Assembly (NCBI RefSeq): GCF_038096165.1
Contig: NZ_CP151076.1
Coordinates: 682,001 to 746,000 of the forward strand
Reading direction: 5' to 3'
DNA from: Pseudomonas sp. G.S.17
GTDB taxonomy: Bacteria; Pseudomonadota; Gammaproteobacteria; Pseudomonadales; Pseudomonadaceae
Length of the DNA stretch: 64,000 nucleotides
Every line of letters starts with the position of its first letter. The stretch's first letter is position 1. The position numbers and the translations under genes were made by a program. This document shows, piece by piece, positions 29,712 to 48,239 of the stretch. The notes below the pieces were generated by a model. The model made no database searches and was not told the origin of the DNA. It saw nothing but the letters and a program-made list of their open reading frames with translations.

Positions 29712-29865
29712 TGGGAGCGTTCGGAGGTAACGACGGCCGCGAAAGCGTTGTATCAGACACATCGCAATCGCAGGCCTCGTAACCTCGTCAAGCTCCCACG
29801 GGGGCAATTTGCCGCGTGCACCCAAATCCGACCACCACCGTCGGACTTGATCAAATTTTGTGCTA

Positions 29866-29874
29866 TATTCCGCG
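29866..29874 (+). promoter_or_regulatory. Extended -10 promoter of ygiQ
   Basis: TGCTATATT fits the TG-n-TATAAT extended -10 form, about 56 bases before the ygiQ start; no -35 is needed for this type. Judged by eye. Confidence 0.4.
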
Positions 29875-29930
29875 ACCGCGATTTTTATCAACATGAATCG
29901 CCTTCCTGCACACCAACACCGGTCATCGAC

Positions 29931-32246
29931 ATGCAAGCAGCCAAGCCGTTATTTGACTATCCCAAGTACTGGGCCGAATGTTTCGGGCCAGCGCCTTTCC
30001 TGCCGATGAGCCGGGAAGAAATGGATCAACTTGGCTGGGATTCCTGCGACATCATCATCGTCACCGGTGATGCGTACGTGGATCACCCGTCTTTTGGCAT
30101 GGCGATCATTGGCCGGCTGCTGGAGTCGCAAGGCTTCCGCGTCGGGATCATCGCCCAGCCCAACTGGCAGTCCAAAGACGACTTCATGAAGCTCGGCGAG
30201 CCGAATCTGTTCTTCGGCGTTGCTGCGGGCAACATGGACTCGATGATCAACCGCTACACCGCGGACAAGAAAATCCGCTCCGACGACGCTTACACCCCGG
30301 GCGGCATGGCCGGCAAGCGTCCGGATCGCGCGAGCCTGGTCTACAGCCAGCGCTGCAAGGAAGCCTACAAGCATGTGCCGATCGTGCTCGGCGGTATCGA
30401 GGCTTCGCTGCGCCGCATCGCGCACTACGACTACTGGCAGGACAAGGTTCGCAACTCGATCCTGATCGACGCCTGCGCCGACATCCTGCTCTACGGCAAC
30501 GCCGAGCGGGCCATTGTCGAAGTCGCCCAGCGTCTGTCCTATGGGCACAAGATCGAAGACATCACCGATGTGCGCGGCACCGCGTTCATTCGTCGTGACA
30601 CACCGAAAGACTGGTACGAAGTGGACTCCACGCGTATCGACCGTCCGGGCAAGGTCGACAAGATCATCAACCCGTACGTCAATACCCAGGACACCCAGGC
30701 CTGTGCGATCGAGCAGGAAAAGGGGCCGGTGGAAGATCCGAACGAAGCCAAGGTCGTGCAGATCCTGGCCAGCCCGCGCATGACCCGCGACAAGACTGTC
30801 ATTCGTTTGCCGTCCATGGAAAAAGTCCGGGCCGACTCGGTGCTCTATGCCCACGCGAACCGCGTGTTGCACCTTGAAACCAATCCGGGCAACGCTCGCG
30901 CACTGGTTCAGAAACATGGCGAAGTCGACGTGTGGTTCAATCCGCCACCGATTCCGATGACTACTGAAGAAATGGACTACGTGTTTGGCATGCCTTACGC
31001 ACGTGTCCCGCATCCTGCGTACGGCAAGGAAAAGATCCCGGCCTACGACATGATTCGCTTCTCGGTGAACATCATGCGCGGCTGCTTTGGTGGCTGTACC
31101 TTCTGCTCGATCACCGAGCACGAAGGCCGCATCATCCAGAACCGTTCCGAAGAGTCGATCATTCGCGAAATCGAAGAAATTCGCGACAAGGTTCCAGGTT
31201 TTACCGGCGTCATTTCCGACTTGGGTGGCCCGACCGCGAACATGTATCGCATCGCCTGCAAGAGCCCGGAAATCGAATCCGCGTGCCGCAAGCCGTCCTG
31301 CGTGTTCCCTGGCATCTGCCCGAACCTGAACACCGATCACTCGGCGCTGATCCAGCTGTACCGCAGCGCCCGTGCGTTGCCGGGTGTGAAGAAAATCCTG
31401 ATCGCTTCCGGCCTGCGCTATGACCTTGCGGTCGAGTCGCCGGAATACGTCAAGGAGCTGGTGACCCACCACGTCGGTGGCTACCTGAAGATCGCCCCGG
31501 AACACACCGAGGAAGGTCCGCTCAACCAGATGATGAAGCCGGGCATTGGCAGCTATGACAAGTTCAAGCGCATGTTCGAGAAGTACACCAAGGAAGCGGG
31601 CAAGGAGCAGTACCTGATTCCTTACTTCATCGCGGCCCACCCGGGCACCACTGATGAAGACATGATGAACCTCGCCTTGTGGCTCAAGGGCAACGGTTTC
31701 CGCGCCGATCAGGTGCAGGCGTTCTATCCGTCGCCAATGGCGACCGCGACCGCCATGTATCACTCGGGCAAGAACCCGCTGCGCAAAGTGACCTACAAGA
31801 GCGACGCGGTGACCATCGTCAAGAGCGAGGATCAGCGTCGGCTGCACAAGGCGTTCCTGCGTTATCACGATCCGAAGGGCTGGCCGACACTGCGCGAAGC
31901 ATTGATCCGCATGGGCCGTGCCGACCTGATCGGTTCGGGCAAGGATCAGCTGATTCCGGCTCATCAGCCGGCAACTGACGGCTATCAGAGCGCACGTCGC
32001 AAGAACTCAACGCCAGCCGGCAGTCATAAGGTCGCTAGCCCTAAAGCAGCCAAGACCACGCTGATCCAGACCCAGCACACCGGCCTGCCGCCGCGCGCCA
32101 GCGATGGCAGCAAGCCGTGGGACAAACGTGAAGAAGCCAAGGCGGCCGCGATGGTCCGCAACAAACAAGCGGCCAAGGATCGCGTTGACGCGGCCAAGGG
32201 CAAAGGCCCGAAACCGCCGAAGCGCAAGCCGGCTGTTCCGCGCTGA
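29931..32246 (+). CDS. ygiQ: YgiQ-family radical SAM protein
   Basis: 771 residues from ATG 29931; the frame is open for another 61 codons upstream, but [19 protein letters not shown] is the conserved family start. The radical SAM cluster motif CFGGCTFC has cysteines at 385, 389 and 392. An N-terminal UPF0313/cobalamin-binding-like region ([20 protein letters not shown]) precedes it. The last 90 residues are Lys/Ala/Pro-rich and look disordered. The reaction of YgiQ is not established. It stands alone between dnaB and a perfect 19-bp hairpin. Confidence 0.92.
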
Positions 32247-34006: not shown

Positions 34007-34022
34007 TGGCATAAGTCTTGCG
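34007..34022 (+). promoter_or_regulatory. sigma54 promoter of the transglutaminase/ATP-grasp operon
   Basis: TGGCATAAGTCTTGCG keeps the GG (34008-34009) and GC (34020-34021) ten bases apart, with TGGCA and TTGC intact. It lies 38 bases before the GTG start, so the 5' untranslated region is short and includes the AGGAGG ribosome site. Confidence 0.65.
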
Positions 34023-34059
34023 CGGTTGCATTACCGTCCAGGCTCGCAGGAGGCACGCC

Positions 34060-37000
34060 GTGTCGATTCATATTGCCTTGCACCACGTCACGCATTACCG
34101 CTACGACCGAGCGGTGGAACTGGGGCCGCAGATTGTTCGCCTGCGTCCGGCAGCTCATAGCCGCACCCGGGTTTTGTCCTATTCCCTGAAAGTCTTGCCT
34201 GAAAACCACTTCATCAACTGGCAGCAAGACCCCCAAGGCAACTATCTGGCGCGTCTGGTTTTCCCGGAGAAGACCAGCGAGTTGCGGGTTGAAGTCGATC
34301 TGGTCGCCGAAATGGCGGTGTTCAACCCGTTCGACTTTTTCCTTGAGCCCTACGCCGAGAAGATTCCGTTCTTCTATGCCAGCGACGAGCAGCGCGAACT
34401 TGCGCCCTATCTGGAAACGCTGCCGCTGACGCCGAGGTTTGCCGCGTATCTGGCGAGCATCGACCGCACGCCTTTGCCCGCCATCGACTTTCTGGTGGGC
34501 CTGAACCAGCGCCTGAGCCAGGACATCGATTACCTGATTCGCATGGAGCCCGGCGTGCAAACCCCGGAGTTCACCCTTGAGAACGCGTCCGGCTCCTGCC
34601 GCGACTCGGCGTGGTTGCTGGTGCAGCTGCTGCGTCATCTGGGGATGGCGGCGCGTTTCGTCTCGGGTTACCTGATCCAGCTCAAGGCCGACGTCGAAGC
34701 CCTCGACGGGCCGTCCGGCACCGATGTGGACTTCACTGATCTGCACGCCTGGTGCGAGGTGTATCTGCCCGGCGCCGGTTGGGTCGGGCTGGATGCTACG
34801 TCCGGGCTGTTTGCCGGTGAAGGCCATATTCCGTTGGCGTGCAGCCCGGAGCCTTCTTCCGCCGCGCCGATCAGCGGCTTGGTCGAACCGTGCGAAACCG
34901 AGTTCATGCACGAAATGTCCGTGGAGCGCATCTGGGAAGCGCCGCGCGTCACCAAGCCCTATAGCGAAGAGCAATGGCTGGCGATTCAGGCCCTCGGGCG
35001 GCAGATCGACAGCGATCTGGTTCGCGAGGATGTGCGCCTGACCATGGGCGGCGAGCCGACGTTCGTGTCCATCGATGACCGCGACGGTGATGAATGGAAC
35101 ACCGCGGCGCTGGGTCCGAAAAAACGCGAGCTGTCCGCCGAGCTGTTCCAGCGCATGCGCAAACATTACGCACCGCTGGGCATCGTGCATTTTGGCCAAG
35201 GCAAATGGTATCCGGGCGAGCAACTGCCGCGCTGGTCGCTGAACTGTTTCTGGCGCAAGGACGGTGAACCGGTCTGGCACAACAACGCCTTGATCGCCGA
35301 TGAAAGCCAGGATTATGGCGCGACCGGTGAACTGGCGGGCCGCTTCCTGGCCAGCGTCGCCGAACGCCTGAAGCTGCCGGAACGCTTTGTGTTCCCGGCC
35401 TACGAAGACAATTTCTATTACCTGTGGCGCGAAGGTGCGCTGCCGGTCAACGTCAGCGCCGAGGATTCCCGGCTCGGCGACGAGCTGGAGCGCGCGCGGC
35501 TGCGCAAAGTCTTTGCCCAAGGCCTGGACAAGATCATTGGCCAGGTGCTGCCACTCGCGCGCAATGCTGCCGGGGACCGCTGGCAGAGCGGTCGCTGGTA
35601 CCTGCGCGACAACCATTGCCGCTTGGTGCCGGGTGATTCGGCGCTGGGCTATCGTCTGCCGCTGGCGTCCCAACCGTGGGTCAAGGCGGCGGAATATCCG
35701 TTTATTCATCCCACTGATCACAATCAGGACTTCCCTGAGTTGCCGGACAGCGCACAGGTCCAGTCGCAACTCAGCGGCCTGATCGAGCAGCCGGACGCCA
35801 ATGCTGAACGCATGCCGAAGATCGACGAGTCCGCCGATTGGTTGACCCGCACCGCGCTGTGCGCCGAGGCGCGGGACGGCCGACTGTACGTGTTCATGCC
35901 GCCGCTGGAGAAACTTGAGGATTATCTGGAGCTGGTCGCCGCTGTCGAAGCCAGTGCTGAAGAGCTGCGTTGCCCAGTATTGCTTGAAGGCTACGAGCCG
36001 CCCAGCGATCCGCGGCTGGCCAATTTCCGCATCACGCCGGATCCGGGCGTCATCGAAGTCAACGTGCAGCCGTCCGCCACCTGGGACGAGCTGGTCGAGC
36101 GCACCGAGTTTCTCTACGAGCAAGCGCGCCTGACGCGCCTGACCACCGAGAAATTCATGATCGACGGGCGTCACACCGGCACCGGTGGCGGCAACCACTT
36201 CGTCATGGGCGGCGCCACGCCAGCCGATTCGCCGTTCCTGCGGCGCCCGGATGTGCTGCGTAGCCTGCTCAGTTACTGGCATAACCATCCATCGTTGTCG
36301 TACCTGTTTTCCGGGCTGTTCATTGGCCCGACGTCCCAGGCGCCACGGGTCGACGAAGCGCGTAACGATTCGCTGTACGAGATGGAAATCGCCTTCGCGC
36401 AGATGCCGAAACCGGGCGAGGAAGTCGCGCCGTGGCTGGTGGATCGCCTGCTGCGTAACCTGCTGATCGATGTCACCGGCAACACGCACCGCGCCGAATT
36501 CTGCGTCGACAAACTGTATTCCCCCGATGGCGCAACCGGCCGACTGGGATTGCTGGAACTGCGTGCCTTCGAAATGCCGCCCCACGCGCGCATGAGTCTG
36601 GCTCAGCAACTGCTGTTGCGCGCCCTGGTCGCGCGTTTCTGGCGCGAGCCTTACGCGCCGGCCAAGCTGGCGCGTTGGGGTACGCAGCTGCATGATCGCT
36701 TCATGCTGCCGCACTTCATCGAGCAGGATTTTGCCGACGTCATCGTCGAGCTGAACAGCGCAGGTTATCCGTTGCGGGCCGAATGGTTCGCCGCGCATCT
36801 GGAGTTCCGCTTCCCGAAAGTCGGCGACTACGCGGTAAGCGGCATCGAACTGGAACTGCGTCAGGCGCTGGAGCCTTGGCATGTACTGGGTGAAGAGGGC
36901 GCGGCGGGCGGCGCGGTGCGCTATGTGGATTCGTCCCTTGAACGCTTGCAGGTGAAAATCAACGGCCTGCCGCCGCAGCGTTATCTGCTGACCTGCAATG

Positions 37001-37350
37001 GCATTCCGGTGCCGTTGCAGCCGACCGGTCGCGTCGGTGAGTTCGTCGCTGGCGTGCGTTATCGCGCCTGGCAGCCCGCCAATTGCCTGCAACCGACGAT
37101 TCCTGTGCATGCGCCGCTGGTTTTCGACCTGGTCGATACATGGATGCAGCGCTCACTGGGCGGCTGCGAGTATCATGTCGCGCATCCTGGTGGTCGCAAC
37201 TACGAAACCTTGCCGGTCAACGCCAACGAAGCGGAAAGCCGGCGCCTGGCGCGATTCTTCAGGATCGGCCACACCCCCGGCAAACTGGAAGTGCCGCTGC
37301 TGACCATCAATGACGAATTGCCCATGACGCTGGATATGCGTCTGCACTAA
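34060..37350 (+). CDS. Transglutaminase-like protein with DUF2126 domain
   Basis: 1096 residues. GTG 34060 is chosen because AGGAGG lies just upstream and VSIHIALHHVTHYRYDRAVE matches the usual N-terminus. The N-terminal third is a bacterial transglutaminase-like (papain-fold) domain with a complete triad: Cys180 in GSCRDSAWLLVQLLR, His229 in DLHAWCEVYLPG and Asp245 in GLDATSG. From about residue 310 to the end it is DUF2126, beginning REDVRLTMGGEPTFVSIDDR, with many conserved Trp/Gly/His motifs (GKWYPGEQLPRWSLNCFWR; HTGTGGGNHFVMGG). No signal peptide is seen. It is first in an operon with a CP-ATP-grasp/alpha-E gene and a second transglutaminase, a set predicted in the literature to make or cut peptide-like amide bonds. 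The substrate is unknown. Confidence 0.88.
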   Translation: MSIHIALHHVTHYRYDRAVELGPQIVRLRPAAHSRTRVLSYSLKVLPENHFINWQQDPQGNYLARLVFPEKTSELRVEVDLVAEMAVFNPFDFFLEPYAEKIPFFYASDEQRELAPYLETLPLTPRFAAYLASIDRTPLPAIDFLVGLNQRLSQDIDYLIRMEPGVQTPEFTLENASGSCRDSAWLLVQLLRHLGMAARFVSGYLIQLKADVEALDGPSGTDVDFTDLHAWCEVYLPGAGWVGLDATSGLFAGEGHIPLACSPEPSSAAPISGLVEPCETEFMHEMSVERIWEAPRVTKPYSEEQWLAIQALGRQIDSDLVREDVRLTMGGEPTFVSIDDRDGDEWNTAALGPKKRELSAELFQRMRKHYAPLGIVHFGQGKWYPGEQLPRWSLNCFWRKDGEPVWHNNALIADESQDYGATGELAGRFLASVAERLKLPERFVFPAYEDNFYYLWREGALPVNVSAEDSRLGDELERARLRKVFAQGLDKIIGQVLPLARNAAGDRWQSGRWYLRDNHCRLVPGDSALGYRLPLASQPWVKAAEYPFIHPTDHNQDFPELPDSAQVQSQLSGLIEQPDANAERMPKIDESADWLTRTALCAEARDGRLYVFMPPLEKLEDYLELVAAVEASAEELRCPVLLEGYEPPSDPRLANFRITPDPGVIEVNVQPSATWDELVERTEFLYEQARLTRLTTEKFMIDGRHTGTGGGNHFVMGGATPADSPFLRRPDVLRSLLSYWHNHPSLSYLFSGLFIGPTSQAPRVDEARNDSLYEMEIAFAQMPKPGEEVAPWLVDRLLRNLLIDVTGNTHRAEFCVDKLYSPDGATGRLGLLELRAFEMPPHARMSLAQQLLLRALVARFWREPYAPAKLARWGTQLHDRFMLPHFIEQDFADVIVELNSAGYPLRAEWFAAHLEFRFPKVGDYAVSGIELELRQALEPWHVLGEEGAAGGAVRYVDSSLERLQVKINGLPPQRYLLTCNGIPVPLQPTGRVGEFVAGVRYRAWQPANCLQPTIPVHAPLVFDLVDTWMQRSLGGCEYHVAHPGGRNYETLPVNANEAESRRLARFFRIGHTPGKLEVPLLTINDELPMTLDMRLH

Positions 37351-37449
37351 AAAGTGTTAATGCCCGCGCGGTAACCTGCCGATGACTTAGTCGTCGGCAT
37401 GTTGCGTGCCTGCACTAATCTGAATTCTTTAGTCTCTGCCGAGCCTTCC

Positions 37450-39945
37450 ATGCCTGATTTGCTTGACCGCTACCCGCTTTCTGCGGGTACTTATCATGAA
37501 ATGCTTGAGCCCGACGGGGCCGTGCGCCCGCACTGGCAGCGTTTATATGAGCATCTGCAACGCAGCACTCCGGCGCAACTGGTCCAGCGTCAGGCGCTGC
37601 TGGCTCGGCAAATTCAGGAAAACGGCGTTACCTACAACGTCTACGCCGATCCCAAGGGCGCGGACCGGCCGTGGGAGTTGGACCTGCTGCCGCATCTGAT
37701 TCCCGCTGATGAATGGCAGCACGTCGCCGCCGGCATTGCCCAGCGTGCGCGACTGCTCAATGCGGTGCTGGCTGACCTTTATGGCCCGCAAACCCTGATC
37801 GCCAACGGCCTGCTGCCCGCCGAACTGGTGTTCGGCCACAACAATTTTCTCTGGCCGTGTCAGGGCGTTCTGCCGCCGGAAGGCATCTTTCTGCACATGT
37901 ACGCTGTGGATCTGGCGCGCACGCCGGATGGCCGTTGGTGGGTAACCGCCGACCGCACCCAAGCGCCTTCGGGTGCGGGCTATGCACTGGAAAACCGCCA
38001 GATCGTTTCCAGGGCGTTCCCGGAAACCTACCGCGACTTGCAGGTTCAGCACCTTTCGGGATTTTTCCGCGCCTTGCAGGACACCCTTGCCCGGCAGGCG
38101 CCGTCCAGCAGCGAAGCGCCGCTGGTCGTGGTGCTGACGCCCGGCCGTTTCAACGAAAGCTATTTCGAACATTTGTATCTGGCGCGCCAACTGGGTTATC
38201 CGCTGGTAGAAGGCGGCGACCTCACGGTGCGCGATGCCACGGTTTACCTGAAAACCCTGAGCGGTTTGCGTCGCGTTCACGCGATCATGCGCCGCCTGGA
38301 CGATGACTTCTGCGATCCGCTGGAACTGCGCACCGATTCGGCGCTGGGCGTGCCCGGCTTGCTGGAGGCGGTTCGTCAGGGCCGGGTATTGGTGGCCAAC
38401 GCACTGGGCAGCGGCGTGCTGGAATCGCCGGGGCTGTTGGGTTTCCTGCCGAAAATCTGTCAGCACCTGTTTGGCGAAGAACTGATTTTGCCTTCAGTGG
38501 CGACCTGGTGGTGCGGCGAGCCGCCGGTGCTGGCTCAGGCGCTGGAAAAAATGTCCGAGCTGTTGATCAAGCCGGCATTTCCTTCACAAAGCTTTGCGCC
38601 GGTGTTCGGTCGCGATCTGACTGAAGAACAGCGCTCGGCCCTCGCGCTGCGTATGCAGGCGCGACCTTATGCTTACGTGGCGCAGGAATTGGCCCAGCTG
38701 TCCCACGCGCCGATCTGGCAGCCGGATGGCGAACACCTGCAACCGCGCGCCATCGGCATGCGCGTCTACGCCGTGGCCAGCGCCGATGGCTATCGCGTGC
38801 TGCCGGGCGGCCTGACCCGTGTCGCGGCCGAAGCCGACGCCGATGTGGTGTCGATGCAACGGGGTGGCGCCAGCAAGGACACTTGGGTGCTGGGCGATCG
38901 CTCCAACGGCGGCGAACCCTGGAAAAGCCAGCGCACCCTTGGCGTGCATGACCTGATTCGCCGCGATCCGTATCTGCCGTCGCGGGTCGTGGAAAACCTG
39001 TTCTGGTTCGGCCGCTATTGCGAGCGCTGTGATGACAGCGCGCGATTGCTGCGCATCATCCTCGCGCGTTATATCGACGGCGACGATCCGGTCGCCCTTG
39101 AGGCCGCTGTGGCGCTGGGTGAAAGCCTCGGCCTGCTGCCCGACGAAGAAGAGGGCGGCGAACTGCACGAACGCTTGCTGGCCGCCTTGCTGGGCGATGA
39201 CTGGCCATTCAGCCTGCGTTCCAACCTGCAACGCTTGCAGTGGGCCGCTTCGCAAGTGCGCGGCAAGCTTTCCCGGGAAAACTGGCAGGCGCTGGTCGAG
39301 CTGCAACGCGAAGCCATGAGCCTGGAAAGCGAGGAGCCGGATTTAGGCGAGTTGCTCGATTTCCTCAACCGGCTGGTGATGTCCCTGGCGGCGCTGTCTG
39401 GCTTTGCGCTGGATGACATGACCCGTGATGAAGGCTGGCGCTTCCTGATGATGGGCCGGCGGATCGAGCGCTTGAAGTTCCTCAGCAATAGCCTGGCGGC
39501 GTTCCTGCGCGGTGTCGCGGTGTCCGATCAGGCCGGGCTGGAATGGTTGCTGGAGCTGGGTAACAGCAGCATCACCTATCGGTCGCGCTATCTGGCCGTG
39601 CCGCAGTTGATTCCGGTGCTCGACCTGTTGCTGCTCGACGACCAGAACCCCCACGCCGTGTTGTTCCAGCTCAAGCTGGTCTCGCGCTCATTGAATCGTT
39701 TGAACGAAGACTTCGGCGCGCCACGGGATGCGAGCCTTGGGACCCTGGTGCGGCGTCTGTCGAGTTTTGATCTCGGCACGCTGGAGAATCCACTGTTCGG
39801 CGAAAGCAGTGTGGATGCGGTACTTGAAGGGCTGGCCGATCTGCTGCTAAGCATTGGCGAGGCCAGCGGGCAAGTGTCGGATCGACTGGCCTTGCGCCAT
39901 TTCGCCCATGTCGATGATGTCAGCCAGCGCACGGTGTCCGTCTGA
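37450..39945 (+). CDS. Circularly permuted ATP-grasp and alpha-E domain protein
   Basis: 831 residues from ATG 37450; an upstream ATG at 37399 would add 17 residues without conservation. Residues about 1-490 are a circularly permuted type-2 ATP-grasp ligase domain (GVTYNVYADPKGADRPWELD; GRWWVTADRTQAPSGAGYAL; the nucleotide-binding MRRLDDDFCDPLELRTDSAL). Residues about 515-825 form the helical alpha-E domain, starting PYLPSRVVENLFWFGRYCER. In other bacteria the two halves are often separate proteins; here they are fused. ATP-grasp enzymes activate carboxylates as acyl-phosphates to form amides, so with flanking transglutaminases the operon could build and trim a peptide. The ribosome site is weak. 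Its stop overlaps the next start (TGATG). Confidence 0.88.
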   Translation: MPDLLDRYPLSAGTYHEMLEPDGAVRPHWQRLYEHLQRSTPAQLVQRQALLARQIQENGVTYNVYADPKGADRPWELDLLPHLIPADEWQHVAAGIAQRARLLNAVLADLYGPQTLIANGLLPAELVFGHNNFLWPCQGVLPPEGIFLHMYAVDLARTPDGRWWVTADRTQAPSGAGYALENRQIVSRAFPETYRDLQVQHLSGFFRALQDTLARQAPSSSEAPLVVVLTPGRFNESYFEHLYLARQLGYPLVEGGDLTVRDATVYLKTLSGLRRVHAIMRRLDDDFCDPLELRTDSALGVPGLLEAVRQGRVLVANALGSGVLESPGLLGFLPKICQHLFGEELILPSVATWWCGEPPVLAQALEKMSELLIKPAFPSQSFAPVFGRDLTEEQRSALALRMQARPYAYVAQELAQLSHAPIWQPDGEHLQPRAIGMRVYAVASADGYRVLPGGLTRVAAEADADVVSMQRGGASKDTWVLGDRSNGGEPWKSQRTLGVHDLIRRDPYLPSRVVENLFWFGRYCERCDDSARLLRIILARYIDGDDPVALEAAVALGESLGLLPDEEEGGELHERLLAALLGDDWPFSLRSNLQRLQWAASQVRGKLSRENWQALVELQREAMSLESEEPDLGELLDFLNRLVMSLAALSGFALDDMTRDEGWRFLMMGRRIERLKFLSNSLAAFLRGVAVSDQAGLEWLLELGNSSITYRSRYLAVPQLIPVLDLLLLDDQNPHAVLFQLKLVSRSLNRLNEDFGAPRDASLGTLVRRLSSFDLGTLENPLFGESSVDAVLEGLADLLLSIGEASGQVSDRLALRHFAHVDDVSQRTVSV

Positions 39946-40838
39946 TGAGCGCCCATTACCAGATCCTCCACGATACGCATTACAAGTACGACAGCCCGGT
40001 TTCTCTGGCTCAGCAGCTTGCGCATCTATGGCCGCGCCGCAGCCCTTGGCAGCGCTGCACTGAACAGCAATTGCTGATCAGCCCGATCCCTACGGTCCGT
40101 CGCGACGAACTCGATGTGTTCGGCAATCCGCTGACCCGCCTGGCGTTCGAACGGCCGCATGATGAGTTGCAAGTCAACGCGCGCCTGCGCGTGGAAGTAC
40201 TGAAGCGACCGCATCTGGATTTCCAGCAGTCGCCCGCCTGGGACCTGACCCGCAACGGCATGACCTACAACGCCAAGCCGATGTCGGCGGACATTCTTGA
40301 AGCCTGTCGTTATCGCTTCGAGTCGCCTTACGTGCACCTCAAGCAATCGTTCGCGGACTTCTCCGCCGTGTGTTTCCCGCTGGGCGCGCCGTTGATGCTG
40401 TGCGTGCAAGCCTTGATGGAGAAGATCTTCCGCGAATTCACCTTCGACGACGAAGCCACGCAAGTCGCGACGCCACTGGTGGAAGTGCTGGAAAGCCGTC
40501 GCGGCGTCTGTCAGGACTTCGCTCACCTGATGCTCGCGTGTCTGCGTTCGCGCGGGTTGTCGGCGCGTTATGTGAGTGGTTACTTGCTGACCCAGCCACC
40601 GCCGGGCCAGCCACGCTTGATCGGCGCGGATGCGTCCCACGCGTGGGTGTCGGTGTTTTGTCCGGTGCTGGGCTGGGTCGATTTCGATCCGACCAACAAC
40701 GTACAGCCAGCGCTGGAGCACATCAGTCTGGCGTGGGGGAGGGATTTTTCCGATGTGTCGCCGTTGCGCGGGGTCATTCTGGGCGGCGGCGTCCATGACC
40801 CGGAAGTGCGGGTGACGGTGATGCCAATCAGCGGTTGA
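39945..40838 (+). CDS. Transglutaminase family protein
   Basis: 297 residues; ATG 39945 overlaps the stop of the ATP-grasp gene. It has the N-terminal beta domain often paired with these enzymes (YQILHDTHYKYDSPVSLAQQ) and a papain-like core with Cys189 in RRGVCQDFAHLMLACLRSRG, His232 in DASHAWVSVFCPVLGW and Asp248 in FDPTNN. The catalytic triad is intact. No signal peptide. In a gene cluster with a ligase, it may be a peptidase or amidase rather than a true cross-linking transglutaminase. Last gene of the operon. Confidence 0.88.
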   Translation: MSAHYQILHDTHYKYDSPVSLAQQLAHLWPRRSPWQRCTEQQLLISPIPTVRRDELDVFGNPLTRLAFERPHDELQVNARLRVEVLKRPHLDFQQSPAWDLTRNGMTYNAKPMSADILEACRYRFESPYVHLKQSFADFSAVCFPLGAPLMLCVQALMEKIFREFTFDDEATQVATPLVEVLESRRGVCQDFAHLMLACLRSRGLSARYVSGYLLTQPPPGQPRLIGADASHAWVSVFCPVLGWVDFDPTNNVQPALEHISLAWGRDFSDVSPLRGVILGGGVHDPEVRVTVMPISG

Positions 40839-41347: not shown

Positions 41348-41540
41348 GGCAATTTGCTCCTGCAAAAGTAACGATGAGGCATGCTCGCTCGTTTTACAGA
41401 GCCTGACTGTTAGATTGTCTCGATGAGCCCGATAGATGGCGTCTGGACATGAGCTGCGCCTGACGCAGGTCATTGGAACTCGCTGCTATATAAGGCAATC
41501 TTTACAGAAATATACAGAACACCTGCCTTGGAGATTCCCC

Positions 41541-41987
41541 ATGATTCGCAAGCTTGTTGCTGCCTCGCTGTTGACCCTGGTTAGTGGCCATTTATTGGCA
41601 GCTGAATGCAGCGTTACCGTCGACTCTACCGATCAGATGTCCTTCAACACCAAAGCCATTGAAATCGACAAAAGCTGCAAGACCTTCACCGTCAACCTCG
41701 AACACTCCGGCAGCTTGCCGAAAGCCGTCATGGGCCATAACTGGGTGTTGAGCAAAGAAGCTGACGCGCAGCCAATTGCCACCGATGGCCTGAGCGCTGG
41801 CATCGACAAGAATTACCTGAAGGAAGGCGACGCTCGCGTGATCGCTCACACCAAAGTGATCGGCGCTGGCGAAAAAGACTCGGTGACCTTCGACGTATCC
41901 AAGCTCGACGCGGCTGAGAAGTACCAGTTCTTCTGCTCGTTCCCAGGCCACATCAGCATGATGAAAGGTTCTGTGACGCTTAAGTAA
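41541..41987 (+). CDS. azu: Azurin
   Basis: 148 residues from ATG 41541, preceded by TTGGAG. Azurin is a periplasmic blue-copper electron carrier. A 20-residue signal peptide ([20 protein letters not shown]) gives a mature form starting AECSV with Cys3 for the disulfide. The copper ligands are present: His in MGHNWVL, and Cys132, His137 and Met141 of the precursor in [12 protein letters not shown], matching mature Cys112, His117 and Met121. I see no ANR box upstream, although azurin is ANR-controlled in P. aeruginosa. A terminator follows directly. Confidence 0.97.
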
Positions 41988-42001
41988 TCGTGTCAGGAAC
42001 G

Positions 42002-42027
42002 AAAAACCCGGCAATTGCCGGGTTTTT
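42002..42027 (+). terminator. Rho-independent terminator of azurin
   Basis: AAAACCCGGCAATTGCCGGG then TTTTTT: a perfect palindromic stem ending in a T-run, 15 bases after the azurin stop. Confidence 0.88.
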
Positions 42028-42034
42028 TGCGATC

Positions 42035-42120
42035 CGTAGGACCGGCTTCAGCCGGGAGGGCGAGCGTTCCGACGATAGAGATGTGGCGAATGGATTCTCC
42101 CGGCTAAAGCCGGTCCTACG
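42035..42120. repeat. REP inverted pair (GTAGGACCGGCTTCAGCCGG family)
   Basis: CGTAGGACCGGCTTCAGCCG at the left and CGGCTAAAGCCGGTCCTACG at the right form a dyad around a 45-base spacer, between convergent azurin and the DUF1338 gene. Best example of this REP family in the window. Confidence 0.88.
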
Positions 42121-42139
42121 GAATTCATTCCAGTCAGCG

Positions 42140-43159
42140 TTATTTCGACTCAGTCATTTTGAAGATGCCCTGGGCATTGCTGCTGTCGAAATTCAGGTCG
42201 ATGCGACCCGTGTCCGGGTCGGTCTTGCGCTGAATGAACTCCACAAACGATCCCGGAACCTGGTGCTCCCGCAAGCGGCCATCGGCATCAATCAGCCCGC
42301 GTTTGACCGTGCAGGCGCGGTAAGCGGTCTGCATCACGCGACCGGAAGTCGAGACTTCGACGGTGGCTTTCATCGGGCGCTCGATGCGGTTTTGCTCCGC
42401 AACCACGGCTTCCAGATCCGCCACGCGATCGGTCAGGTGATTGAAGCTGTTGCCCTCGGTGGCAATCCAGGCCATTTCCGCGCTTTCGCTCAGCAATTGC
42501 TGATAGTCGGCGTGCTGCACGACGCCATGCTGGCGGTCAAACGCCTGATACAGCGCCGGTAACAGTTCGCCGGCTTCCTGAAGACTGCAATGTCGGGTCA
42601 GGCGCAGGCGCTGGAGGATGCTCAGGTGTTGGGCTCGCAGTGGATCGCGACTGGAGCTGACCACGCGGGTTACGGCGCTCTGGAAGGTTTCGCTGAAGCG
42701 GCCGGGGTGCAGTTCGGAGACGAAGAACTGCGCGATGTCTTCCGGCAAGTCCTGCTGGCGATAGGCCCAGCCGGTCATGTTGAGTTTGGTCAGCGGATAG
42801 GTGCGAACATCGGTGAAACCCAGCGGCTCCAGCAAGCGGATAAAGGCTTGACGTCCACGGGGCAATTCGCCGTTTTCCGGCCAGTCCACGGTGCGAATGG
42901 CGCCGTGATCGAACACCACTTTGCGACCTTGCTCGACTTGCTCGTCCACATACTGGCGACCGGCCGGCACCGCTTCCACCAGCTTATGCAGCAGGCACAG
43001 GTTCAGCGCTTCGGCCAGCCAGGCGCGATGCAGTGCTGTCTCGTTCCAGGCAAAGGCGTGCAGGCCTGCGGGGACTTCAACGTGGCGTTCCAGCCAATCG
43101 GCAGCAGGTTGGCCAACGGTGCGAGCAACGAGAGAGAAGAGACCTTCGAACGAGGACAT
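42140..43159 (-). CDS. DUF1338 (2-oxoadipate dioxygenase/decarboxylase family) protein
   Basis: 339 residues. The family includes HglS (YdcJ type), an Fe(II) enzyme that converts 2-oxoadipate to 2-hydroxyglutarate in D-lysine catabolism of P. putida. The metal-site region VFDHGAIRTVDWPENGELPR carries the conserved His, followed by QAFIRLLEPLGFTDVRTYPL, KLNMTGWAYRQQD and DIAQFFVSELHPGRF. A second conserved segment, WIATEGNSFNHLTDRVADLE, contributes the next His. At 339 residues it is shorter than HglS (about 460), closer to the short plant-like DUF1338 form, so substrate identity is uncertain. It lies about 3.6 kb from amaB/amaA, the lysine-catabolic genes beside which hglS lies in P. putida. 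Confidence 0.78.
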   Translation of the reverse strand: MSSFEGLFSLVARTVGQPAADWLERHVEVPAGLHAFAWNETALHRAWLAEALNLCLLHKLVEAVPAGRQYVDEQVEQGRKVVFDHGAIRTVDWPENGELPRGRQAFIRLLEPLGFTDVRTYPLTKLNMTGWAYRQQDLPEDIAQFFVSELHPGRFSETFQSAVTRVVSSSRDPLRAQHLSILQRLRLTRHCSLQEAGELLPALYQAFDRQHGVVQHADYQQLLSESAEMAWIATEGNSFNHLTDRVADLEAVVAEQNRIERPMKATVEVSTSGRVMQTAYRACTVKRGLIDADGRLREHQVPGSFVEFIQRKTDPDTGRIDLNFDSSNAQGIFKMTESK

Positions 43160-43286
43160 GGGTGGCGGCTCAGACTGTGAAAGTTAGGACGCTATCTAAG
43201 CCCCAATGCCCGAACCCGACAAGCGAAAAAAAACGACGGGGTCATTCCGTTTTCTATTGCCGAGTACCCATCCGCGCAGACTGGCA

Positions 43287-43378
43287 GGAGGGGACTTGTC
43301 CCCGAAGGCAATCGGTCAGGCAACGAAATAACCCGATTTTGCCGTCTGAAATGACGCCTTCGGGGACAAGTCCCCTCC
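43287..43378. repeat. Inverted repeat of a third REP-like family
   Basis: A perfect 22-bp arm beginning GGAGGGGACTTGTCCCCGAA (43287-43308) is repeated as its exact inverse complement at 43357-43378. Each arm is itself partly palindromic (GGGGACTTGTCCCC). It lies between the nadE stop and the start side of the DUF1338 gene. Confidence 0.85.
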
Positions 43379-43398
43379 TACATGTCACCGCTAGCACT

Positions 43399-44226
43399 TC
43401 ATGGCGCGTACGGCAACTCCCGCTTGTGCTGGGTTTTGCGGTACGTGTCGCAGATGATCTTGAACGCTTCTTCGCGAACCGGTTCGCCATGCAGGAAGGC
43501 GTCGATCTCGGCGTAGGTCACGCCGTGAGAGGCTTCATCCGGTTTGCCGGGTACGAGGTCTTCCAGGTCGGCAGTCGGAATTTTCTCGACCAGGGCTTCC
43601 GGCGCGCCGAAGTGACGAGCAATCGCGCGAACCTGATTTTTCACCAGGCCGCTGAGCGGTGCAAGATCGCACGCGCCATCGCCGAACTTGGTGAAGAAAC
43701 CCATGACCGCTTCGGCCGCATGATCGGTGCCGATCACCAATCCTTGGTGTGCGCCAGCAATGGTGTACTGAGCAACCATGCGCATGCGCGCCTTGGTGTT
43801 GCCGACGACAAAATCCACGGCGCTGGCATTCTGGTCTTCAAACGCTTTGATCTCGGTCGCCAGGGCTTTGACCGCCGGGCCGATATTTACCGTATGCCGT
43901 TCATCCGGCTTGATGAAATCCACTGAAGCCTGCGCCTCATGCTCGTCGTGCTGCACCAGATACGGCAAGCGCACCGCGATGAACCGATAGCTGTCGTCGC
44001 CGGTCGTGCTACGTAGCTCTTCGACCGCGCGCTGGGCGAGCAAGCCGGCAGTGAGAGAATCAACCCCGCCGCTGATACCGAGCACCAACGTCTTGAGCCG
44101 CGCGTTTTGCAGGCAATCCTGAATGAACACGATGCGCCGGGCGACTTCCGCCTGCAGCGCGCTTTCGTCTGCGAAAGGGGGATGCACCTTCAGTTGTTCA
44201 GCGATCTGGAGTTGTACGCCTTGCAT
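43399..44226 (-). CDS. nadE: NH3-dependent NAD+ synthetase NadE
   Basis: 275 residues. It adenylates and amidates nicotinate adenine dinucleotide to NAD+, using ammonia. The PP-loop SGGVDS lies at residues 52-57; [20 protein letters not shown] and [20 protein letters not shown] are conserved synthetase segments. There is no glutaminase domain, so this is the short ammonia-dependent type. It follows pncB by 47 bases on the same strand, so the two steps from nicotinate are co-expressed. Confidence 0.96.
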
Positions 44227-44273
44227 GATTCACTCCTTGGTAGGTTAAGAACGGCGATTCGCGTGCGAAAAAA

Positions 44274-45473
44274 CTAAGCGGTTACTTTGAACACGTGTCG
44301 CAGATAAGCGACGAAATTCGGGTCTTTGCACTGGGTCTTGCCGGGCTCATCGGAAATCTTCGCCACCGGCTGACCTGCACAGGCAGTCATTTTCAGCACG
44401 ATGCTCATGGGCTCGACACCGGGGATGTCGGCAGTCAGGTTAGTGCCAATCCCGAAGCTGACATTGATGCGACCACGCAAAGCGCGAAATATTTCCAGCG
44501 CCTTGGGTAAAGTCAGCCCGTCCGAGAACACCAGCGTCTTGGTCATCGGGTCGATGCCGATCTTCTGGTAATGAGTGATGCATTTTTCGGCCCACTGCAC
44601 CGGGTCGCCCGAATCATGACGCAAGCCATCGAATAACTTGGCGAAGTACAGATCGAAATCGCGCAGGAAAGCGTCGGTGGTGATGCAATCGGTCAGGGCG
44701 ATGCCCAGCAGGCCACGGTATTCATGCACCCAGCAATCGAGCGCGGCAATCTGGCTGTCGATCAGCCGTGGCCCCAATTGTTGATGGGCCATGATCCATT
44801 CGTGAGCCATGGTGCCCAGCGGCTTGAGGTCCAGCTTGCGCGCCAGATCCACGTTGCTGGTACCGACGAACTGGCCGGGGAAATCCTTCTTGAGGACGCT
44901 GACCACTTCTTCCTGCACTCGATAGGAAAAGCGTCGACGCGTGCCGAAGTCGGCCACTTTCAGCGCGGCCAACTCGTCGGGTTGCGCATTGGCGGTCAGC
45001 CAGTCGAATTTGCGGTGCAGCTGATCCGTGGCCTGACTGAGCAGAATCTGCGGATGGCGATGACGATTGCGCACTTCGCTGACAATCGCCAGCACCGGCA
45101 CTTCGAACAGAATCACGTGCAGCCACGGCCCTTGCAGGCGGATGCACAGCTGATCGTCTTCGATGCTGCATTTGATATAGCGGGTATTGAAGCGGAACAG
45201 ACCGAGAAACCTCAGGAAGTCCGGCTTCATGAAGTTGATGCGCTCCAGGAAACCCAATTCTTCGGCACTCAGGGACAACTCACACAGATGCTCGACCTGC
45301 TGCTGGATTTCGCCCAGATACGGCCGCAGATCCTCGCCATTGCGGCAGCGAAACTCCCACTCGACGTCGACGTTGGGGTAGTTATGCAGGACGGCCTGCA
45401 TCATGGACAGCTTGTACAGATCGGTGTCGAGCAGGTTTTGCACGATGCGATTGGAGAATGCGCTCTCGCTCAT
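44274..45473 (-). CDS. pncB: Nicotinate phosphoribosyltransferase PncB
   Basis: 399 residues from ATG 45473-45471, with GGAG seven bases upstream; the frame is open a further 13 codons. PncB turns nicotinate, PRPP and ATP into nicotinate mononucleotide, the entry of the Preiss-Handler pathway. [20 protein letters not shown] at the N-terminus, [13 protein letters not shown] with the phosphorylated-His region and [20 protein letters not shown] near the C-terminus are family signatures. Upstream partner of nadE. Confidence 0.96.
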
Positions 45474-45600
45474 TGGGTCGCTCCAGCAGGACCGGCCGCC
45501 AGACGCGGCCAAAACGAATCTGAATCAGTGTTGGTTGACGATGGCGGACATAATGCCAGTGGCGGCGGGATTGGGGGGAATGAATTCAACGCCATGGCGC

Positions 45601-45691
45601 CGTTGGAGCGAGGCTTGCCCGCGAATCGGACTTCCATTCAACACATTGCTCGCTTGAAAATATGCCTTCGCGGGCAAGCCTCGCTCCAACG
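45601..45691. repeat. REP inverted pair (CGTTGGAGCGAGGCTTGCCC variant)
   Basis: CGTTGGAGCGAGGCTTGCCC at the left and GGGCAAGCCTCGCTCCAACG at the right are exact inverse complements. Related to the GTGGGAGCGAGC family but with distinct stem bases. Between pncB and the LysR gene. Confidence 0.88.
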
Positions 45692-45706
45692 GGTATTTGC
45701 TCGCTA

Positions 45707-46597
45707 TTACCCCAACTGCTCCATCATCCACTCGACAAAATCCCGGATCTTCGGCACGTCGGCGGCGTGTTCGGGGTAGGCCATGTAATAGGAATCGGTG
45801 CTCGGCAGGGCGTATTGCCAGGGGATGACCAGTTTGCCGTCGGCCAGTTCTTCTTCCACCAGAAAGCGCGGCAGCAGTGCGACGCCGCAGCCGACCTGTG
45901 CGGCACGGATGCACATATAGAAGGTTTCGAAGCGCGGCCCGTGATAGCTGTGTTCGGTGTGATAACCCTGGCTTTCGAACCAGTCGTGCCAGCCTTGCGG
46001 GCGCGAAGCACTTTGCAGCAGCACCAGGTCGGTCAGTTGCGTCGGGTCGCTGAATGGCTGGTCCGGCAGGCAACCCGGCGCGCAGACCGGGATCAGTTCT
46101 TCGCCGAACAACTTCATGCTTTCCGCCCCCGGCCGCGCTCCCTGGCCGAAATAGAACGCCAGGTCGCAGCGGCTTTGCGCCAGATCATCGGTTTCCTGCT
46201 CGTTGACCAGATCCAGGTGGATGTGCGGATGCCGCAGCCGCCAGCCCTTGAGACGTGGCACCAGCCAGCGGGCGCCGAAGGTCGGCGGCGTCGAAACGCG
46301 CAGCACCTCGGTTTCGCCGCCATAAGAGCGCAGGAACAGCGTGGACATTTCCACCTGGCTGAGGATCTTGCGAACTTCGCCCAGATACAGCGCGCCGGCC
46401 GGCGTCAGTTGCAGGCGGCGGCGAACCCGGCGAAACAGCAAGTGCTGCACCAGTTCTTCCAGCTGCGCCACTTGCTTGCTGACCGCACTTTGCGTCAGGT
46501 TCATCTCTTCGGCGGCGCGGGTGAAGCTCAGGTGGCGCGTGACGGCTTCGAAGCATTGCAGGGCAGTGATCGACGGTAAGTGGCGTTTGTTCAGCAT
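45707..46597 (-). CDS. LysR-family regulator (GcvA type) of the amaB region
   Basis: 296 residues from ATG 46597-46595; the frame is open for 51 further codons, but MLNKRHLPSITALQCFEAVT is the standard LysR/GcvA start. The winged-helix motif covers FEAVTRHLSFTRAAEEMNLT and QSAVSKQVAQLEELVQ; the C-terminal co-inducer domain spans about 95-296. It is divergent from amaB across 151 bases, the arrangement of the regulator next to amaB in P. putida, so it probably controls pipecolate/lysine catabolism. The effector is not visible from the sequence. Confidence 0.88.
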   Translation of the reverse strand: MLNKRHLPSITALQCFEAVTRHLSFTRAAEEMNLTQSAVSKQVAQLEELVQHLLFRRVRRRLQLTPAGALYLGEVRKILSQVEMSTLFLRSYGGETEVLRVSTPPTFGARWLVPRLKGWRLRHPHIHLDLVNEQETDDLAQSRCDLAFYFGQGARPGAESMKLFGEELIPVCAPGCLPDQPFSDPTQLTDLVLLQSASRPQGWHDWFESQGYHTEHSYHGPRFETFYMCIRAAQVGCGVALLPRFLVEEELADGKLVIPWQYALPSTDSYYMAYPEHAADVPKIRDFVEWMMEQLG

Positions 46598-46748
46598 GTT
46601 CGGGCCTTTTTGCCTGTTCCGGTGCTCAGCATGAATAAACGGAATGATATCTCGCCTAATGGTCGTTTGTTGAGGCGCGTATACCCAGCTATTACTAGAG
46701 GCTGAGGATTTACCCGTATTTTCAGCATTCCCGAAATCAGGAGAGAAC
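46598..46748. promoter_or_regulatory. Divergent lysR/amaB promoter region
   Basis: Holds an interrupted dyad AAACG (46637-46641) to CGTTT (46664-46668) with TAATGG next to the right arm, a plausible LysR-type operator. Ribosome site CAGGAG lies before amaB. Confidence 0.35.
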
Positions 46749-48239
46749 ATGCTTACCGACTTGCTAACCCGTCTCGGTGTCGACCCCGCGCTTTATCAGA
46801 AGGGCGATAAGCCTGTTCACACCCCCATCGACGGTAGCCGCATCGGCGCTGTGAATTGGGAAGGTGCTGCTGAAGTCGAGCAACAAATCAGCCGTGCCGA
46901 CGCGGCCTTTGATGCCTGGCGCAAGGTTCCGGCACCGCGCCGTGGCGAGCTGATCCGTCTGTTCGGCGAAGCGCTGCGCAAACATAAGGCTGACCTGGGC
47001 GAACTGGTTTCCTGGGAAGCCGGCAAGATCACTCAGGAAGGCCTGGGCGAAGTGCAGGAAATGATCGATATCTGCGACTTCGCGGTCGGTCTGTCCCGCC
47101 AGCTGTACGGTTTGACCATCGCTTCCGAGCGTCCGGGCCACCACATGCGTGAAACCTGGCACCCGCTGGGCGTGGTCGGCGTGATCAGCGCCTTCAACTT
47201 CCCGGTTGCGGTCTGGGCCTGGAACACCACGTTGGCGCTGGTGTGTGGTAACTCGGTGCTGTGGAAACCTTCGGAAAAAACCCCGCTGACCGGTCTGGCC
47301 TGCCAGGCGCTGTTCGACAAAGTGGCCAAGGACTTCGCCGGCGCTCCGGCGTATCTGGCTCAGGTCATCATTGGCGGCCGCGCTGCGGGCGAAGCGCTGG
47401 TCGATGATCCACGCGTGGCCTTGATCAGCGCCACCGGCAGCACCCGCATGGGCCGTGAAGTCGCGCCGAAAGTCGCCGCACGTTTTGCCCGCAGCATTCT
47501 GGAACTGGGCGGCAACAACGCGATGATCCTCAGCCCGAGCGCTGACCTGGATCTGGCCGTGCGCGCCATTCTGTTCAGCGCCGTCGGTACTGCCGGCCAG
47601 CGTTGCACCAGCCTGCGCCGTCTGATTGCCCACGAATCGGTCAAGGCCGAGATCGTCGCGCGTCTGAAAACCGCTTACGAGAAAATCCGCATCGGTCACC
47701 CGCTGGAAGGCAATCTGATCGGCCCGCTGATCGACAAGCAGAGCTTCGAAAACATGCAGGACGCGCTGGAGCAGGCGTTGAGCGAAGGTGGCAAGGTTTT
47801 CGGCGGCAAGCGTCAGCTGGAAGATAAATTCCCCAATGCCTACTACGTTTCCCCGTCCATCGTGGAAATGCCTGAGCAGAGCGATGTGGTCTGCACCGAA
47901 ACCTTCGCGCCGATCCTGTACGTGGTTGGCTACGAAGATTTCAACGAGGCACTGCGCCTGAACAACGCGGTACCGCAAGGTCTGTCGTCGTGCATCTTTA
48001 CCACTGACGTGCGTGAAGCCGAGCAGTTCATGTCCGCGCTGGGCAGCGATTGCGGCATCGCCAACGTCAACATCGGCCCGAGCGGCGCAGAAATCGGTGG
48101 CGCATTCGGCGGCGAGAAAGAAACCGGTGGTGGCCGTGAATCCGGCTCCGACTCGTGGCGCGCCTACATGCGCCGCCAGACCGCAACCGTGAACTACTCA
48201 CTGGAATTGCCGTTGGCGCAGGGGATTACCTTCGATTAA
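46749..48239 (+). CDS. amaB: L-piperidine-6-carboxylate dehydrogenase (ALDH7)
   Basis: 496 residues, the length of the P. putida AmaB protein. It oxidises piperideine-6-carboxylate (aminoadipate semialdehyde) to 2-aminoadipate in the pipecolate branch of lysine breakdown. The aldehyde dehydrogenase signature residues are in place: Glu252 in LELGGNNAMI and catalytic Cys286 in AGQRCTSLRRL, with NAD-site VISAFNFPVAVWAWNTTLAL. The C-terminal GGAFGGEKETGGGRESGSDS is the ALDH7 pattern. Good ribosome site. Followed by amaA after a REP pair. Confidence 0.93.
   Translation: MLTDLLTRLGVDPALYQKGDKPVHTPIDGSRIGAVNWEGAAEVEQQISRADAAFDAWRKVPAPRRGELIRLFGEALRKHKADLGELVSWEAGKITQEGLGEVQEMIDICDFAVGLSRQLYGLTIASERPGHHMRETWHPLGVVGVISAFNFPVAVWAWNTTLALVCGNSVLWKPSEKTPLTGLACQALFDKVAKDFAGAPAYLAQVIIGGRAAGEALVDDPRVALISATGSTRMGREVAPKVAARFARSILELGGNNAMILSPSADLDLAVRAILFSAVGTAGQRCTSLRRLIAHESVKAEIVARLKTAYEKIRIGHPLEGNLIGPLIDKQSFENMQDALEQALSEGGKVFGGKRQLEDKFPNAYYVSPSIVEMPEQSDVVCTETFAPILYVVGYEDFNEALRLNNAVPQGLSSCIFTTDVREAEQFMSALGSDCGIANVNIGPSGAEIGGAFGGEKETGGGRESGSDSWRAYMRRQTATVNYSLELPLAQGITFD

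Follow-up and report, generated by a model that had tools for sequence, protein, structure and literature searches.

The combination of a circularly permuted (CP) ATP-grasp protein, a CP glutamine synthetase (GS)-like ligase, an NTN-hydrolase and an Alpha-E protein was reportedly predicted by Iyer et al. in 2009 to constitute a peptide-tagging system, the GS-like domain in question, DUF2126, being itself said to be circularly permuted. Here we describe a three-gene operon of this kind in a 64,000-nucleotide stretch of the Pseudomonas sp. G.S.17 genome (contig NZ_CP151076.1, positions 682,001 to 746,000; hereafter, the window), which encodes a CP ATP-grasp, a GS-like ligase and Alpha-E together. 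The likeness to the reported 2009 system extends to the transglutaminases and to the frequent clustering of all these components; the operon differs from it in that the genome has no match to the proteasome-like peptidase Anbu and in that the operon's ATP-grasp is missing residues which its stand-alone relatives keep without exception. The preliminary description of this DNA had presented the operon as an amide-bond system predicted only computationally and lacking an established product, which agrees with our findings, and as a candidate undescribed system, of which only the missing product stands (none was found), since a system of this kind had reportedly been predicted already. Thus, the operon belongs to a known, experimentally unexplained kind, and the part not found in print is the reading of its ATP-grasp as a pseudoenzyme: in the literature searched, from which the 2009 paper was absent, we found no report of an inactive ATP-grasp of this family and no mention of DUF2126 by name.

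Among later publications, PMC6376114, PMC5666114 and PMC3597751 cite the 2009 prediction in connection with the synthesis or tagging of peptides. PMC5666114 considers it less likely that Anbu takes part in peptide synthesis and finds the Anbu operon proteins to be non-essential and mostly unchanged in expression. In marine metagenomes, PMC3597751 reports an association of the domain set with domains of urea metabolism. The Anbu operon (PMC6376114 and PMC5666114) shares three homologous components with the operon described here, but its ATP-grasp and Alpha-E proteins are separate, its ATP-grasp residues are kept and it has no DUF2126. The rlo operon of P. aeruginosa (PMC12239564) likewise brings together ATP-grasp and transglutaminase-like proteins; its own proteins are different, namely an inactive seven-transmembrane transglutaminase, a RimK-like ATP-grasp and a secreted aspartic protease.

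Candidate ligases of the operon

Profile matches bear out the fusion of CP ATP-grasp (CP_ATPgrasp_2/1) and Alpha-E (PF04168, 222 bits) in gene 2, whose ATP-grasp part belongs to the circularly permuted family (PF14403) by both fold and sequence. The Alpha-E part keeps its ER motif in the 57 aligned fused proteins (Arg526 and Arg674 in 57/57, Glu525 in 55/57, Glu673 in 56/57). A very different picture emerged for the residues Glu158, Asn160, Asp423 and the Gly loop (stand-alone numbering), which are presumed, by analogy with glutathione synthetases, to bind Mg and ATP. At the presumed metal site, the Glu is found in 1/57 and the Asn in 0/57 aligned fused proteins, and Glu, Asn and Asp are each found in 0/76 fused proteins from named genome records; in both sets, the losses extend to Asp423, Asn454 and the Gly loop. 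The stand-alone paralogues keep the presumed Mg/ATP residues in 34/34 cases (four stand-alone fragments were excluded from this comparison), with all eight checked residues present in 27/27. Unlike its stand-alone relatives, the fused family has neither the Glu-x-Asn motif nor the Gly-rich loop, and in this it differs from ATP-grasp enzymes of the glutathione/glutathionylspermidine synthetase type (2hgs, 1m0w, 2io7, YgiC 7uka).

These alignments suggest that the fused ATP-grasp has lost residues that such enzymes use, and gene 2 is without the residues presumed to make an ATP-grasp ligase catalytically competent. The replacement residues are themselves conserved, a pattern to be expected of a site that was rebuilt and not of one in decay: an Arg stands in place of the lost Asn in 52/57 and 75/76 fused proteins, accompanied by Gln171 (51/57) and Ser468 (39/57 and 71/76), and Lys363 is retained in 60/76. 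This conservation would be expected of an altered ATP-grasp that binds nucleotide or acyl phosphate in a metal-free manner, with Arg169 acting for the metal, and catalyzes a different transfer reaction. We regard such an enzyme as unlikely, because the Gly loop is not only lost but variable among the fused copies, and conservation is lower in gene 2 than in gene 1 (median identity to the window copy of 43% for the ATP-grasp half and 29% for the Alpha-E half in 36 non-Pseudomonas proteins, vs. 58% for DUF2126 in 39). The original proposal, in which the gene 2 ATP-grasp itself catalyzes amide ligation and the operon suffices to make a peptide for the transglutaminases to trim, is distinctly improbable, as its presumed Mg/ATP residues are gone from nearly all fused copies while the stand-alone ATP-grasp of the same genome keeps them.

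The likelier ligase of the operon is DUF2126 (PF09899), its largest domain, for which both a predicted GS-like fold and the loss of the gene 2 ATP-grasp residues argue. The match is full-length (1357 bits, profile positions 1-826 of 826), Pfam describes the domain as a putative amidoligase, and its predicted model resembles GS closely enough to be placed in the GS fold. The likeness to GS and gamma-glutamylmethylamide synthetase thus lies in the predicted fold; unlike GS, DUF2126 is fused to a transglutaminase. The preliminary description, which treated gene 1 as a papain-like protein, had recognized the transglutaminase domain (Bact_transglu_N and Transglut_core) and overlooked DUF2126, which occupies residues 276-1094. 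Both Cys-His-Asp triads sit where they had been placed and are invariant: Cys180/His229/Asp245 of gene 1 in 59/59 aligned proteins, and Cys189/His232/Asp248 of gene 3, which carries a second transglutaminase pair of domains, in 50/50. Alignments A1 and A2 include 7 of the Pseudomonas loci; over-long frames are absent from both (L103 from A1; L118, L119 and L121 from A2). Loss of catalytic residues in close relatives, an outcome named beforehand as damaging to the proposal, was therefore found for the ATP-grasp and for neither of the two transglutaminases.

Overall, we consider it on balance probable that the operon is a DUF2126 module, comprising a GS-like ligase, two transglutaminases and a pseudo-ATP-grasp partner, that is accessory to an intact ATP-grasp system, and as such part of a widespread bacterial system forming amide bonds in a peptide or peptide tag. 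In this scheme, transcription would start at a sigma54-type promoter, and gene 1 would supply a papain-like transglutaminase/peptidase domain together with a GS-like ATP-dependent carboxylate-amine ligase. As the most likely bond-forming enzyme, DUF2126 would use ATP to activate a carboxylate that is then joined to an amine, probably on a peptide-like substrate, and the transglutaminase domains, including the second hydrolase/transferase encoded by gene 3, would cleave or transfer the resulting amide. The gene 2 protein, retaining the fold with the conserved Arg and Gln occupying the former metal site and bearing a helical Alpha-E part, would most likely be a partner with a binding, scaffolding or regulatory role, holding the substrate or placing it. 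The module appears to depend on the stand-alone ATP-grasp operon of the same genome and probably works with it, as that operon may supply or consume the same intermediate. A more specific and tentative version, which we rate as possible but somewhat short of probable, posits that the system pairs an active ATP-grasp with an inactive one. The active member would be the intact stand-alone ATP-grasp-Alpha-E core; the inactive member would be the fused pseudoenzyme, its metal site rebuilt around the conserved Arg, which would hand substrate to DUF2126 or control it, in a relay of two ligases of unrelated folds switched on by sigma54 with a different activator at each operon.

Occurrence across genomes and relation to Anbu

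The dependence on an intact ATP-grasp was assessed in a sample of 299 genomes of the phylum, with E < 1e-100 defining a strong CP ATP-grasp match and a frame of 400-700 amino acids defining stand-alone size. DUF2126 occurs in 84/299 genomes, Anbu in 101/299 and the CP ATP-grasp family in at least 161/299, with a strong match in at least 156. Such a match is present in 84/84 DUF2126 genomes and at least 100/101 Anbu genomes; by accessory, the ATP-grasp genomes comprise 50 with both DUF2126 and Anbu, 34 with DUF2126 only, at least 50 with Anbu only and at least 22 with neither (at least 10 of these 22 keep a fused degenerate copy). A stand-alone-type ATP-grasp was seen in 83/84 DUF2126 genomes, 81 of them by frame size among the matches listed, with G207 and G036 counted from their loci; the stand-alone frame of G212 is not among the matches listed. 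Alpha-E was found in at least 73/79 Pseudomonas genomes, the best match in each being as strong as the stand-alone type. From this nested occurrence, the intact ATP-grasp looks like a hub to which DUF2126 and Anbu are accessories, and common descent could contribute to the pattern as well. Co-occurrence of the operon's genes, for which a search across genomes had been proposed, was seen for genes 1 and 2: 76/80 named DUF2126 loci have a fused ATP-grasp/Alpha-E gene, in 68/76 cases at most 300 nucleotides downstream on the same strand.

In the G.S.17 genome itself, genes for a stand-alone ATP-grasp, an Alpha-E protein and a transglutaminase lie at L003 5133-8329, in an order that matches the published Anbu operon. 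No Anbu-sized frame lies 3' of them (L003 8330-9143 contains short frames only), and an Anbu probe that does match solved Anbu chains gave no match in the whole genome, where the one proteasome-family match, located elsewhere, is presumably HslV. Anbu is present in 10/79 Pseudomonas genomes, and the Pseudomonas stand-alone operon, mostly without Anbu, differs from the operon described here in having NtrC-type sites. Two loci (L092 and L101) combine a transglutaminase-DUF2126 gene, Anbu and stand-alone ATP-grasp/Alpha-E genes of the intact type, and a fused copy is absent from the stretch in both.

We give little credence to the idea that the operon serves to tag proteins for degradation, with Anbu removing or destroying the tag. 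Tagging has been proposed (PMC6376114 and PMC5666114), and an Anbu-type gene adjoins this operon type or the stand-alone operon in five loci (L085, L092, L101, L115 and L141, in the last following the stand-alone operon), but Anbu has no match in this genome, nor in 34/84 DUF2126 genomes.

Promoter and nitrogen response

The single sigma54 promoter claimed for the operon was borne out as a predicted element. The 16-mer TGGCATAAGTCTTGCG is the sole match in the window to TGGCATN5TTGCG (0.19 expected), a count that is weak by itself given that 17/100 shuffles also contain one. The element becomes credible because its position is kept while flanking DNA diverges: a sigma54-type 16-mer is found at -52 to -55 in 20/20 upstream regions (the window and 19 other Pseudomonas loci), one of which has T for C, vs. 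an average of 0.33/20 for a looser form in base-shuffled regions. From this positional conservation, the operon is predicted to be transcribed from a sigma54-type promoter. One further Pseudomonas locus, L076, has genes 2 and 3 and no frame matching gene 1, hence no promoter row.

The paralogous stand-alone operon, too, has a sigma54-type element, in 18/21 upstream regions (the exceptions being L130, L140 and L129, the last with a gene interrupted by a stretch of Ns); as the Pseudomonas match to the Anbu operon, it adds a further likeness between the Anbu type and the DUF2126 operon. The two operon types differ in the NtrC-type site GCAC-N7-GTGC, which is present in 16/21 stand-alone regions vs. 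1/20 regions of the DUF2126 type (L074, not the window) within 250 nucleotides upstream. Most of the Pseudomonas regions upstream of gene 1 instead show GTGC half-sites about 42 nucleotides apart (near -142 and -100), which may mark an activator other than NtrC.

Published expression data concern P. putida, where, according to PMC8050072 (Table 2 among others), PP_2688 (ATP-grasp) and PP_2685 (proteasome-like) have log2 values of 3.99 and 4.44 for nitrate vs. ammonium, and the PP_2688 promoter is up 3.7-fold in nitrogen-limited stationary phase while that of PP_2685 is insensitive to nitrogen. From their annotation, we infer that these genes are counterparts of the stand-alone operon. For the preliminary suggestion of a nitrogen connection, support is indirect: sigma54-type elements are conserved in both operons, but it is the stand-alone/Anbu type that has the NtrC-type site and the published response. 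We consider it very improbable that nitrogen limitation induces synthesis of a product serving as a nitrogen store, despite the sigma54-type element upstream of gene 1 and the responsive P. putida genes, since those genes represent the other operon type (one with an insensitive promoter), the GTGC half-sites suggest another activator and a storage-polymer family match was found in 0/8 neighboring frames scanned.

Operon layout and significance

Gene calls and domain matches confirm a real operon of three same-strand genes at the location given earlier (Table 1). The starts and stops, described as overlapping, do so for genes 2 and 3, which share 1 nucleotide (TGATG), and not for genes 1 and 2, which are 99 nucleotides apart, or 48 with the upstream ATG at 37399 as the gene 2 start.

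Table 1. Features of the DUF2126 operon (window coordinates; aa, amino acids; nt, nucleotides)
Feature	Position	Strand	Remarks
Sigma54-type -24/-12 element TGGCATAAGTCTTGCG	34007..34022	+	53 nt 5' of gene 1 start
Gene 1 (P1, 1096 aa, GTG start)	34060..37350	+	N-terminal transglutaminase-like domain and DUF2126 putative amidoligase
Intergenic stretch	37351..37449	+	Hairpin, no T-run
Gene 2 (P2, 831 aa)	37450..39945	+	CP ATP-grasp fused to Alpha-E; presumed Mg/ATP residues of the family absent
Gene 3 (P3, 297 aa)	39945..40838	+	Stand-alone transglutaminase-like protein; PF08379, PF01841

The intergenic hairpin is strong. Folding of the 19 other Pseudomonas loci gave a strong hairpin 3' of gene 1 in most of them as well, with largely unrelated sequences. 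The closest named relatives are Pseudomonas, with gene 1 identity of up to 94%. The flanks (29748-32246 and 41436-46750) encode a radical SAM protein with DUF3362, an azurin-family protein, an HGLS-family dioxygenase, NAD synthase, nicotinate phosphoribosyltransferase and a LysR regulator; no link between these genes and the operon was seen.

Genes of this system are common, as the counts for DUF2126 and strong CP ATP-grasp matches illustrate, yet no known product was found. Knowing which ATP-dependent domain can be active makes DUF2126 and the stand-alone ATP-grasp, in place of gene 2, the targets for assays, and suggests that knockout of one operon may be uninformative without knockout of the other.
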